This document shows positions 22,218 to 37,743 of a stretch of DNA of 39,246 nucleotides, one piece after another. A model generated the notes under the pieces. It saw only the letters and a list, made by a program, of their open reading frames with translations. It was not told the origin of the DNA and searched no databases. The position numbers and the translations under genes are program-made. This DNA is from an uncultured Oscillospiraceae bacterium (lineage in GTDB: Bacteria; Bacillota; Clostridia; Oscillospirales; Oscillospiraceae): positions 1 to 39,246 of the forward strand of contig CALWYF010000021.1 of the NCBI GenBank assembly GCA_944385705.1. The letters run 5' to 3'. How positions within the stretch are numbered: the stretch's first letter is position 1; each line of letters begins with the position of its first letter.

Positions 22218-22502
22218 CTGAGACTGCCGAAAAAGCCTCGCAGATTTTTTTAAACCCAGCGAAAAAACAAATACAATCGTTTTCTGCGGCGACATGTGCG
22301 TCGCAGAAAACACCTATCACATTCATACCGAATCAAAGCCCAGCATAAGCGGGTTTGATTCGGTAAGGAGCTGCAACGAAATGGATGAGAAGCGGCGGCT
22401 GCCCTTACGGGCTGCCGCCGCTGCGAAGTGTATGGAGTTTGCAGAGACGCAGCGCAGTGAAAGCTCTTTTTTCAAAAAAGGCAAAGCCTTATTTGAAAAG
22501 CT
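22218..22502 (+). repeat. Structured dispersed repeat, copy 1
   Basis: About 285 bp shared with copies at 29411-29685 (minus) and 37470-37743 (plus). It opens with CTGAGACTG and an AACCCAGCGAAAAA box. Hairpin 1 is GTTTTCTGCG (22279-22288) with CGCAGAAAAC (22302-22311). Hairpin 2 is CCGAATCAAA-CCC with GGG-TTTGATTCGG (22328-22363). A linker at 22364-22390 is invariant in its core in all copies. Hairpin 3 is 22391-22422 (AGCGGCGGC...GCCGCCGCT). Hairpin 5 is 22469-22482 with 22486-22499. A weaker GCTGCG/CGCAGC pairing may lie between hairpins 3 and 5. The groEL terminator follows at once. An open frame runs through the element but is not conserved as protein. Confidence 0.9.
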
Positions 22503-22534
22503 CAAGCCCGGAGGCAGACGCCTCCGGGCTTGAG
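22501..22534 (-). terminator. groESL terminator (bidirectional), abutting repeat copy 1
   Basis: CTCAAGCCCGGAGGC (22501-22515) pairs perfectly with GCCTCCGGGCTTGAG (22520-22534). TTTTAT follows on the plus strand and CTTTTC on the minus strand, so it can stop transcription from both the groEL side and the repeat side. Confidence 0.85.
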
Positions 22535-22579
22535 TTTTATGCTTGGGGTTATTTAACTGTTCGGCTGCTTACCGATTTA

Positions 22580-24208
22580 TCAGTACATGCCGCCCATGTC
22601 TCCGCCGCCGGCGGGCATAGGAGGATTCTTCTCGGGGATGTCGGCAACCAGGCTCTCGGTGGTCAGAACCATGGAGGCCACGGAAGCGGCGTTCTCCAGA
22701 GCGCTGCGGCAGACCTTGGTGGGGTCGACGATGCCCAGCTCTATCATGTCGCCGTACTGGTCGTTGGCGGCGTCGTAGCCGTAGGTGCTGCTGGTGCTGC
22801 CGGCAACATTGTTCAGGATGACTGCGCCTTCCAGACCGGCGTTGGCAGCTATCTGCATGATGGGGGCCTTCAGAGCCTTGGCAATGATAGCGGCGCCGGT
22901 CTTCTCGTCGCCCTCAAGAGCGGCAACTTCGGCCTCGGCAGCCTTGGAAGCTATGACGTAGGCAGTGCCGCCGCCGGGTACAACGCCCTCTGCAACAGCT
23001 GCGCGGGTGGCGTTGAGAGCGTCCTCGATACGCAGCTTCTTCTCCTTCATCTCGGTCTCGGTAGCGGCGCCGACCTTGATGACTGCAACACCACCGGAGA
23101 GCTTTGCCAGACGCTCCTGGAGCTTCTCCTTGTCATACTCGGAGGTGGTGGTCTCTATCTGACGGCTGATCTGAGCGGTGCGGGCCTTGATCTCTTCGCT
23201 GGAGCCTGCGCCGTCTACGATGACGGTGTTCTCCTTGGTGACCTTGACCTGGTGAGCCTGGCCCAGCATATCCAGGGTGGCTTCCTTCAGCTCCATGCCA
23301 AGCTCGCTGGAGATGACGGTGCCGCCGGTGAGGATGGCGATATCCTGGAGCATTTCCTTACGTCTGTCGCCGAAGCCGGGGGCCTTGACGCAAACGCAGG
23401 TGAAGGTACCACGCAGCTTGTTGAGAACGATAGTGGCAAGAGCTTCGCCCTCCACGTCCTCGGCGATGATCAGCAGCTTGCGGCCGGCCTTGACGATCTG
23501 CTCCAGCAGGGGCAGAATCTCCTGAATGTTGGAGATCTTCTTGTCGGTGATGAGGATGAGAGCGTCGTCAATAACGGCTTCCATCTTGTCCATATCGGTG
23601 GCCATGTAGGGGGACAGGTAGCCCCGGTCGAACTGCATGCCTTCAACCACTTCGCTGTAGGTCTCGGCGGTCTTACTCTCTTCCAGAGTGATGACGCCGT
23701 TCTGGCTGACCTTCTCCATAGCTTCGGAGATCAGGTTGCCGATGACCTCGTCGCCGGAGGAGATGGTGCCAACACGGGCGATGTCCTTGGAGCCGGACAC
23801 GGGCTGGGAGATGGCCTTGATGCCGTCAACTGCGGCCTGGGTGGCCTTCTGGATGCCCTTGCGCATGACCATGGGGTTTGCGCCGGCGGCCAGGTTCTTC
23901 AGGCCCTCGCTGATCATGGCCTGAGCCAGAACGGTGGCGGTGGTGGTACCGTCGCCGGCCACGTCGTTGGTCTTGGTGGAAACTTCCTTGATGAGCTGGG
24001 CGCCCATGTTCTCAAAAGCGTCCTCCAGCTCTATCTCCTTGGCGATGGTCACGCCGTCGTTGGTGATCAGGGGAGCGCCGAACTTCTTGTCCAGCACTAC
24101 GTTGCGGCCCTTGGGGCCCAGGGTTATCTTAACGGTATTGGCCAGCTGGTTTACGCCGCGCTCTATGGCCTTTCTTGCTTCTTCACCGTAAATAATCTGT
24201 TTAGCCAT
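22580..24208 (-). CDS. groEL: Chaperonin GroEL (Hsp60)
   Basis: A 542-aa group I chaperonin subunit; 14 copies form the double ring that folds proteins with GroES and ATP. Family blocks are [17 protein letters not shown] near the N-terminus, [16 protein letters not shown] (ATP binding, about residues 83-98), [15 protein letters not shown], and the C-terminal [14 protein letters not shown] tail. The length is standard. AAGGAGG lies 9 nt before ATG 24208, and groES is 22 bp upstream in the same operon. Isoleucine codons here are largely ATC or ATT, unlike the ATA-rich neighbours, as expected for a highly expressed gene. Confidence 0.98.
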
Positions 24209-24229
24209 TGTTATTTCCTCCTTAGTCTA

Positions 24230-24514
24230 TCACTCGATAACGGCCAGTATGTCGCTCTGACGGACGATGGTGTACTCCACATCCTCCAGCTTAACCTTGC
24301 TGCCGCTGTATTTGCCCACCAGGACGTTCTGGCCGGCCTTGACTATCATATCTACCTGGTTGCCGTCCACCATTCCGCCGGGGCCCACCTCGACGACTTC
24401 GTAGACCTCGGGCTTCTCCTGGGCGGAAGCGGTCAGGAAAATGCCGGAGGAGGTGCGCTCCTCAGCTGCGTTCTGCTTGAGAACGACTCTGTCGGCCAAA
24501 GGTTTGAGTTTCAT
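24230..24514 (-). CDS. groES: Co-chaperonin GroES (Hsp10)
   Basis: A 94-aa co-chaperonin that caps GroEL. It begins KLKPLADRVVLKQ and has the mobile loop EERTSSGIFLTASAQEKP (about residues 18-35) that docks into the GroEL ring; the length is the family norm. I start at ATG 24514, 8 nt after GGAGG; a TTG five codons earlier lies within the ribosome binding site. It is the first gene of the operon and sits 34 bp downstream of a CIRCE element, so heat-shock control by HrcA is expected. Confidence 0.97.
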   Translation of the reverse strand: MKLKPLADRVVLKQNAAEERTSSGIFLTASAQEKPEVYEVVEVGPGGMVDGNQVDMIVKAGQNVLVGKYSGSKVKLEDVEYTIVRQSDILAVIE

Positions 24515-24547
24515 ATCATATACCTCCAAAAGTTTATTACAAAATTC

Positions 24548-36485: not shown

Positions 36486-36511
36486 GAGCCTGCAGGGCTC
36501 TCTTTTTCTTT
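36486..36511 (+). terminator. Second terminator before the patatin gene
   Basis: GAGCC (36486-36490) and GGCTC (36496-36500) around TGCAG, followed by TCTTTTTCTTT. It is short but has a strong U-tract. Confidence 0.6.
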
Positions 36512-36528
36512 ACCCTGGGGGAGCAGCC

Positions 36529-36557
36529 TTGAAAAAATTCTGCAAAGGTAGTAAAAT
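36529..36557 (+). promoter_or_regulatory. Promoter of the patatin-like gene
   Basis: TTGAAA (36529-36534) and TAAAAT (36552-36557) are 17 bp apart, 34 bp before ATG 36592. This gives the phospholipase its own promoter downstream of two terminators. Confidence 0.65.
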
Positions 36558-36591
36558 GCTTTAAAAATTAAAACCTCTTGGAGATGGTGAT

Positions 36592-37440
36592 ATGAAAACA
36601 GGGCTGGTGTTGGAAGGCGGAGCCATGCGGGGCATGTATACCGCCGGGGTGCTGGATGTGCTTTTGGACAGGGGAGTGAGCTTTGACGGCATTATGGGAG
36701 TTTCCGCCGGGGCTCTGTTCGGGCCCAACTTCCTGTCTAAGCAGCCGGGCCGGGTTATACGCTACAACAAGCGCTTTATCAGAGATAAACGCTACAAGGG
36801 CTGGGGATGCCTGATAAGAGAGGGCAACCTGTTCAGCGCCGGCTTTGCCTACGGAACCGTACCCCGGGAGCTGGACGTCTTCGACGACGAGACCTTTAAA
36901 AAGTCCGGGGTGCCCTTCTATGCCGTGGTCACCGGCCTTGAGTCGGGGGAGCCGGAGTACATGGAGATAAAAAGTGTTTTTAAGGATATGGATAAACTCC
37001 GTGCCTCCGGCTCCATGCCATTCGTGTCCAGACCCGTGGAGATAGACGGCAAGCTCTATCTGGACGGAGGTGTGTCCGACAGCGTGCCCTATGAGGCTAT
37101 GAAAAGGATGGGCTATGACAGGCTGGCGGTGATACTCACCCGGGACATGGACTACAAGAAAAAGCCCATGCCGGCCCTGCCAATCAAGCTGTGCTTCCGC
37201 CGTTATCCCAGGTTCAGAGACAGGCTGCTGAAGCGCCACGAGACCTATAACCGCAGTGTGGCCCGGCTGAGGGAGCTGGAGGAGCGGGGGGAAATCTTTG
37301 TCATCCGGCCCTCGGTGCCGATAGAGATAGGCCGGGTGGAAAGCGACCCGGATAAGCTTCAGCAAGTATATGAGCTGGGGCTGAAGGACGGGGAGGCCGC
37401 CGCAGAAAAGCTGGCCCGGTTCCTGAAGGGCGAAAATTAA
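36592..37440 (+). CDS. Patatin-like phospholipase
   Basis: A 282-aa patatin-family acyl hydrolase with a Ser-Asp dyad. The oxyanion-hole loop is EGGAMRGMYTAG (about residues 8-19), the nucleophile is in GVSAG (about 36-40) and the catalytic Asp is in LDGGVSD. The C-terminal part is basic and rich in Arg, typical of the bacterial YjjU/YchK-like proteins. Substrates are membrane phospholipids or other esters; none can be named. It has its own promoter, and repeat copy 3 begins 30 bp after its stop codon without an obvious terminator between. Confidence 0.92.
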   Translation: MKTGLVLEGGAMRGMYTAGVLDVLLDRGVSFDGIMGVSAGALFGPNFLSKQPGRVIRYNKRFIRDKRYKGWGCLIREGNLFSAGFAYGTVPRELDVFDDETFKKSGVPFYAVVTGLESGEPEYMEIKSVFKDMDKLRASGSMPFVSRPVEIDGKLYLDGGVSDSVPYEAMKRMGYDRLAVILTRDMDYKKKPMPALPIKLCFRRYPRFRDRLLKRHETYNRSVARLRELEERGEIFVIRPSVPIEIGRVESDPDKLQQVYELGLKDGEAAAEKLARFLKGEN

Positions 37441-37469
37441 AAGAGATTTGTACAGTAAAAGCCGGGGCG

Positions 37470-37743
37470 CTGAGACTGACAAAAATTCTCGCAGAGTTTT
37501 TTCAACCCAGCGAAAAATAAATTAAATCGTTTTCTGCGGCGGCGTGTACGTCGCGGAAAACACTTCTCACACCTCTGCCGAATCAAAGCCCAGCGTAAGC
37601 GGGTTTGATTCGGGAAGGAGCTGCAACGAAATGGATGAGAAGTGGCGGCGCCCAAGTGGGCCGCCACTGCGAAAGATATGGAGTTTGCAGCGACGCAGCG
37701 AAGTGCTTTTTGTCAAAGAAGGCATAGCCTTCTTTGACAAGCT
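37470..37743 (+). repeat. Structured dispersed repeat, copy 3
   Basis: About 274 bp, the most diverged copy. Hairpin 1 (37529-37538 / 37552-37561) has TGCG against CGCG, a U-G wobble between the U-A of copy 1 and C-G of copy 2. Hairpin 2 is 37578-37613 with one loop change. Hairpin 3 (37641-37668) has AGTGG against CCACT, where the others have AGCGG against CCGCT, and is 4 nt shorter. Hairpin 5 (37710-37723 / 37727-37740) has TTGTCAAAG with CTTTGACAA, where copy 2 has TTGACAAAG with CTTTGTCAA. It ends 5 bp before the terminator of the AI-2E gene. Confidence 0.9.

Follow-up and report, generated by a model that had tools for sequence, protein, structure and literature searches.

Does a repeat whose stems are kept by paired base changes have to be a functional RNA? 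The question is raised by a stretch of 39,246 nucleotides (nt) from an uncultured Oscillospiraceae bacterium of the gut (GenBank assembly GCA_944385705.1, contig CALWYF010000021.1, positions 1 to 39,246 of the forward strand; here called the window), in which an earlier note had described three such repeats as a new structured element. The three repeats are, with high confidence, copies of a small mobile DNA element that carries no gene. Our best explanation, with a probability of about 85%, is that each is a composite non-autonomous DNA transposon: a miniature inverted-repeat transposable element (MITE) of the type of the insertion sequence (IS) IS1182 that sits in transcription terminators and holds an inner structured repeat.

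The coordinates and orientations of the three repeats were confirmed (Table 1). By blastn within the own genome (2.26 Mb in 95 contigs, 96% complete), copy 2 was 90% and copy 3 was 84% identical to copy 1. The prediction of many copies per genome also held, since the search with copy 1 found 33 places. When these were compared side by side, 10 were long copies or long-form remnants, 21 were short and 2 (L011 and L033) contained the middle module with the outer part absent. The full long form has 285 nt. The short form of about 205 nt agrees with it over the initial 103 nt and in the terminal hairpin, and differs in the middle. The element was matched in 21 of 60 sampled genomes, the own genome counted in. 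A scan of public genome contigs with the linker motif gave 105 stretches, and in 16 matches a second motif lay close by. Four of these 16 lay in unrelated genomes; the credible matches came from uncultured Oscillospiraceae, an uncultured Eubacteriales and Candidatus Limivicinus.

The flanks on both sides were compared for 31 of the 33 own copies (L011 and L033 were dropped), and 930 flank pairs from different copies served as the background. In 19 of the 31 copies, the repeat between the left and the right flank outscored the best of the 930 background pairs. All 19 flank repeats fold into hairpins of 8-15 bp with a length of 21-42 nt, and at least five T residues were found within up to 10 nt around and beyond the end of the right hairpin in 10 of them. 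At two loci, L014 and L034 (contigs C13 and C45 of the own genome), the two hairpins that flank the element have their loops in opposite orientation, and at L018 a flank has turned into an extended palindrome with the MITE end. These cases suggest that the template was later switched between palindrome arms.

The same sites were then compared in congeneric genomes (G numbers). At L020, the element was present in G000 and G016, and a single hairpin without the element was found in G029 and G003; in G012, which is 75% identical, there is no room for the element. At L025, G000 carries the element and G016, G098 and G003 have one hairpin without it. Similarly, L018 is occupied in G000, G016 and G003, and in G098 and G029 a single hairpin stands without the element. 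Two of the window copies also have unoccupied counterparts. Behind cstA, where copy 2 is located, G098 and G016 have one hairpin; G003 and G029 carry a short MITE there. At the site of copy 3, G098 has one hairpin, and a different MITE with IS1182-like ends was found in G003 and, inverted, in G029. This second MITE family (L332 in G003, L333 in G029) has another body and occupies the same terminator in opposite orientations. At the site of copy 1, the short MITE of G003 is bordered by two hairpins that differ from each other, one being the probable groEL terminator, and G098 contains other sequence. At L029, the element of G098 is inverted relative to that of G000 in the same terminator. No unoccupied form was found at L033, where all five genomes compared (G016, G098, G003, G066 and G029) hold an element of some subtype. 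The filled, empty and inverted sites of the congeners show that terminators were hit repeatedly and in both orientations.

The ends of the element relate it to a known family. Typical MITE copies have TGAGACTGTCRAAAAAGCC as their left end and, read inward, TCAGCTTGTCRAAGAAGG as their right end. The genome G016, which carries MITE copies as well, has an intact IS1182-family gene of 494 amino acids that scores over the family cut-off and is flanked by the ends TCAGCTTGTAGAAAAACC and TCAGCCTGTCGAAAAAGG. In G031, one IS1182 end reads TCAGCTTGTCAAAAAACTA. The right end of the own MITE agrees with this end in 15 of 16 positions, and L045, a MITE of the relative G023, agrees in 16 of 16. Over four IS ends, the two own MITE ends matched in 11-15 of 16 positions and L045 in 13-16. 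The genus sample comprised 61 genomes, of which 27 matched the NCBIfam model of the IS1182 transposase, NF033551, and 9 of these were over the cut-off. Judged from these sequences, the outer part is in all likelihood a gene-less MITE whose terminal inverted repeats are imperfect and resemble those of IS1182. The earlier note had not recognised an IS-related element; the IS1182-type ends, the hairpins on both sides and the element-free sites speak for such a relation.

How could such an element enter a terminator and leave a hairpin on each side? According to the excerpts of Furi et al. (2016) and Wan et al. (2017) used here, the IS1182-family elements IS1272 and TnSha1 insert into stem-loops, terminators among them, which are thereby lost in whole or in part (PMC4923244, PMC5678879). 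Figure 13 in the excerpt of Wan et al. (2017) also contains a hypothetical pathway b, where the 3' ends attack the 5' feet of the hairpin and the whole stem-loop is duplicated (PMC5678879). Since a whole hairpin on both sides is the pattern of this pathway, we infer that an IS1182-type transposase acted along it. A DDE transposase of the IS1182 family would move the MITE in trans. Its target would be the hairpin of an intrinsic terminator, and each 3' end would be linked to a 5' foot of this hairpin, one per strand. Gap repair would then copy the whole stem-loop, leaving the element between two hairpin copies. One of these could retain the T-run and still end transcription, and the element would then probably sit in the 3' untranslated region. 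The long form also contains a member of a second structured repeat family.

Several observations weigh against this explanation. A flank repeat is missing in 12 of the 31 own copies, and all three window copies are among them. The single-hairpin sites of L018 in G098 and G029 hold a ACAGTCTCA stretch that looks like the trace of an earlier insertion. The IS1182 ends that were compared had been picked because they resembled those of the MITE, and different ends were found on further IS1182 copies in the genus (L175, L178, L180 and L182). The two hairpins that flank the IS of G016 are not copies of each other. In the own genome, no match to NF033551 or PF13751 was found. Finally, the mobility of the MITE is read from sequence and from the comparison of sites, and no transposition event was observed.

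The structure of the outer MITE was analysed in the alignment A5, which contains 26 of the 33 own copies (without L009, L010, L011, L021, L023, L033 and L035) and 13 copies of relatives. The pair reported for hairpin 1 was recovered in columns 63/83 as T-A, C-G and T-G in copies 1, 2 and 3. What had been called hairpin 5 is the terminal hairpin of the MITE, and at one of its steps copy 2 indeed has A-T where copy 3 has T-A. In hairpin 1, 99.8% of the cells are paired in 38 distinct rows, with changes on both sides in 5 of 13 pairs. When both helices of the hairpin 1 test were taken, such two-sided changes occurred in 9 of 22 pairs, compared to 4.9 in shuffles; further pair types amounted to 14, a number that was reached by 185 of 500 shuffles. 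In the MITEs L044, L045 and L066 of relatives, the terminal hairpin resembles hairpin A of the inner family with the core AGCCCAGCGNAGCGGG, which suggests that the MITE and the inner family have swapped parts more than once.

The inner module of the long form was aligned separately. The alignment A1 contains 22 of 28 segments and is the source of the model R1 with 129 positions. Two-sided changes were found in 18 of the 36 pairs, compared to 5.3 (standard deviation 1.8) in shuffles, and 96.1% of the cells are paired, compared to 24-43% in slid versions. The pair reported for hairpin 3 is C-G, C-G and T-A in copies 1, 2 and 3 (columns 75/106), as had been described. The linker that the earlier note called invariant is well conserved but does vary, and the part of it that forms a stem covaries with the pairing partner. 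In hairpin A, the bulged bases are conserved. On the antisense strand, hairpin A is followed by a T-run in 30 of 76 matches, compared to 13 of 76 in a control stretch, which makes a terminator role of hairpin A plausible but not general. In one subtype of the inner family (L051, L054, L055 and L056), GGATATGGAG and CGGAATGGAG, the two purine-rich strands of the internal loop, have traded places on the 5' and 3' side when compared with the window form. A small open reading frame behind AAGGAG..ATGGATGAG was dropped as a candidate, since in relatives such as L197 the frame is closed after a few codons.

The wider family was represented by the alignment A4 with 40 rows picked from the search matches. 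Its closing strand can pair with a near (PROX) or a far (DIST) partner, and the two structures have hairpin A and the mid hairpin in common. With the near pairing, 209 two-sided cells were counted and 62 in shuffles; with the far pairing, 197 and 57.5. In the helices that differ between the structures, two-sided changes occurred in 4 of 9 pairs (PROX) and in 5 of 8 pairs (DIST). Two mutually exclusive pairings are thus both kept.

These paired changes can be explained in different ways. If the repeat were a conserved structured RNA, kept for the function of a folded transcript, for instance at the 3' end of the preceding mRNAs, the strong covariation in hairpin 1, A1 and A4 would find a ready explanation. 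The half-changed cells of hairpin 1 (6 G-U versus 1 A-C) lean to the plus strand, where a G-T pair is retained in 38 of 39 A5 rows, and A1 has 24 G-U versus 10 A-C, with 11 of the G-U cells in a single pair column (21 distinct rows). Alignments fitted to the model favour G-U by construction (100 versus 34 and 61 versus 22). However, the divergent inner-family alignment is balanced with 32 G-U and 36 A-C, two alternative pairings are kept, no Rfam match of the element reached the gathering score and the element is present or absent at the same sites across congeners. We regard such an RNA as unlikely. Neither strand of the inner family is clearly singled out as RNA. With its lean, hairpin 1 may have a role on one strand, in RNA or in single-stranded DNA. 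The paired changes had been taken as the mark of selection on RNA or single-stranded DNA structure; on their own, they do not prove selection on RNA structure.

A stronger competitor, still clearly below even odds, is that the paired changes are mainly mutational and arise by template switching between the arms of an imperfect palindrome, where one arm is rewritten from the other. The inverted loops at L014 and L034, the extended palindrome at L018 and the balance of G-U and A-C in the inner family agree with this. The preference of hairpin 1 for G-U does not, and the conserved bulges of hairpin A are unexpected, since palindrome repair would tend to remove them. These bulges, on the 5' side of the inner module, together with the lack of clear inverted repeats noticed around it, would also suit an element of the REP/RAYT or IS200/IS605 type, moved by an HUH transposase that uses subterminal hairpins. 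HUH elements are not known to have terminal inverted repeats or target duplications, whereas the outer element ends in inverted repeats and lies between hairpins, and we consider this origin very improbable. For the composite MITE, the description as a structured, covarying and multi-copy repeat stands; a mobile DNA element takes the place of the new free-standing structured RNA.

Since the inner module also occurs outside the MITE, its distribution was followed with the model R1. Matches were found in at least 71 of 81 genomes of the genus sample, and in the order sample in at least 23 of 147 genomes and at least 16 of 86 genera (own genome included). The own genome has 30 R1 places at an E-value of up to 0.01. 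Among 78 inner-family matches, which are best-hit loci and not a random sample (L210 and L238 are one place), the 3' end of 31 lies within 30 nt of a tRNA gene. Of these, 25 are antisense at the CCA end of the tRNA and 6 point in the same direction at the 5' end. In the own genome, which was unselected, an R1 match abuts the 3' end of 5 of the 32 tRNA genes detected with RF00005 (on C3, C5, C14, C18 and C31). Five of 76 matches start directly after a stop codon (L033, L051, L052, L213 and L239), and three of these look like one gene; in this set of 76, at least four matches that abut a tRNA (L202, L211, L224 and L232) were filed as "other" owing to their offset. Directly behind tRNA-Val(GAC), the element was found in G000, G016 and G098. 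With matching upstream sequence, G029 and G066 have a plain terminator instead, and in G000 the likely old terminator of tRNA-Val is still found further downstream. The tRNA-Val genes of G077, G065, G034 and G012 are also without the element, in flanks that may not be orthologous. The tRNA-Val sites with and without the element indicate that the inner family, too, varies in its presence.

Some units of the inner family hold a copy of a tRNA 3' end, as at the own tRNA-Thr. Behind this gene (L222, C13:48000-50400, positions 776-1480), tandem units contain the tRNA 3' end as an inverted piece and as a direct copy, and an inner-family element comes after each direct copy. Tandem units of a similar make-up, but lacking the inner-family element, were seen behind tRNA-Val in L306 (G029) and L309 (G012); they comprise a terminator, the T-arm in inverted copy and the tRNA 3' end in direct copy. 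Tandem arrays of the inner family are also located beside tRNA-Gly and tRNA-Leu in L223 (own C31:1-1600) and L230 (G098:C30:1500-4100). The inner family is apparently a second, undescribed structured repeat family that seems to be mobile. Somewhat short of even odds is our tentative proposal for its nature: a class of mobile "trailer-terminator" repeats with palindromic bodies of about 130 nt and two exclusive conserved pairings. These would insert in antisense exactly after the CCA of a tRNA or after some stop codons and would supply the sense strand with a terminator-like hairpin. They would accumulate in tandem together with copies of tRNA 3' ends, and an IS1182-type MITE would have taken them up and carried them to other terminators.

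Table 1. Positions of the element copies, their parts and the adjoining hairpins in the window.
Feature	Position	Strand	Context or evidence
Copy 1, long composite element	22218..22502	+	between PepSY-domain gene and groEL (convergent)
Copy 2, long composite element	29411..29685	-	between cstA and tatD; element-free single-hairpin site in G098, G016
Copy 3, long composite element	37470..37743	+	between patatin-like gene and AI-2E-family transporter gene (convergent); single hairpin without element in G098
Left terminal inverted repeat of copy 1 (TGAGACTGCC...), IS1182-like	22219..22235	+	sequence; family form compared with IS ends
Hairpin 1 of outer MITE, copy 1	22279..22311	+	covariation
Middle module (R1 family member), copy 1	22327..22455	+	R1 match, 151.6 bits
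Hairpin A of middle module, copy 1, with bulged G and bulged A	22328..22363	+	
GC-rich inner hairpin of middle module, copy 1 (hairpin 3 of the earlier note)	22391..22422	+	
Terminal hairpin of MITE, copy 1; 3' arm runs into right terminal inverted repeat	22468..22499	+	sequence
Hairpin adjoining right end of copy 1, probable groEL terminator on - strand	22504..22531	.	sequence; also borders short MITE in G003
Terminator hairpin behind cstA, adjoining copy 2	29381..29402	.	sequence and sites of relatives
Middle module, copy 2	29457..29585	-	R1 match, 155.2 bits
Half hairpin left of copy 3, repeated in right-hand hairpin	37459..37468	.	
Middle module, copy 3	37577..37701	+	R1 match, 140.2 bits
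Whole hairpin right of copy 3	37750..37773	.	single hairpin at G098 site

The earlier note had not recognised a known RNA family, and no Rfam match reached the gathering score in the window; by E-value, six matches were obtained, all sub-threshold. Seven inner-family loci gave tRNA as the only Rfam match at the gathering score. One of 50,697 phage records, unannotated, matches 31% of copy 1 at 77% identity. The element had no match in the plasmids, and one exact pattern searched in viral contigs was not found there. Among open-licence papers in PubMed Central, none joined four or more of the terms MITE, transcription terminator, target site duplication, hairpin and IS1182, and the papers listed contained nothing about repeats of this kind at tRNA ends or about repeats in the present genus.

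Taken together, our comparison, which includes unoccupied sites, provides evidence for a terminator-targeted transposition that duplicates the stem-loop, previously only a hypothetical branch beside the deleting mode of IS1272. As the duplication can leave a functional terminator, it would account for dozens of tolerated insertions. The inner family suggests that mobile structured repeats occupy the 3' ends of genes in this gut genus. For compensatory changes in repeats, a strand test of G-U against A-C is needed before selection on RNA is read from them.

The rtT repeats of E. coli tyrT are tandem units with a copy of the tRNA 3' end behind the tRNA gene, and they are known from one locus in enterics. 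Some arrays of the inner family resemble them, but the inner family is found at many different tRNA genes. The outer MITE can be compared with IS1272 and TnSha1 as described in the excerpts of the two papers: it shares with them the stem-loop targets, many of which are terminators, the absence of a sequence preference and the use of both orientations in one terminator (PMC4923244, PMC5678879). It would also depend, as they do, on a transposase of the IS1182 family. Those elements remove the stem-loop completely or in part and make no target duplication, as far as these excerpts go, whereas a whole hairpin was found on both sides of 19 of the 31 own copies, and the present element is gene-less with about 205-285 nt. 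Bacterial MITEs whose transcripts are structured, such as BOX, RUP, SPRITE and QMITE, are, in the part of the source consulted, likewise small and gene-less, with terminal inverted repeats, stable hairpins and nested insertions (PMC10969869). What sets the present element apart from these, as they appear there, is its target, a terminator hairpin that is duplicated as a whole, and the module of a separate family that it holds. In conclusion, the duplication of the whole hairpin is new relative to the known targeting of the IS1182 family, and the inner family may be new as well.

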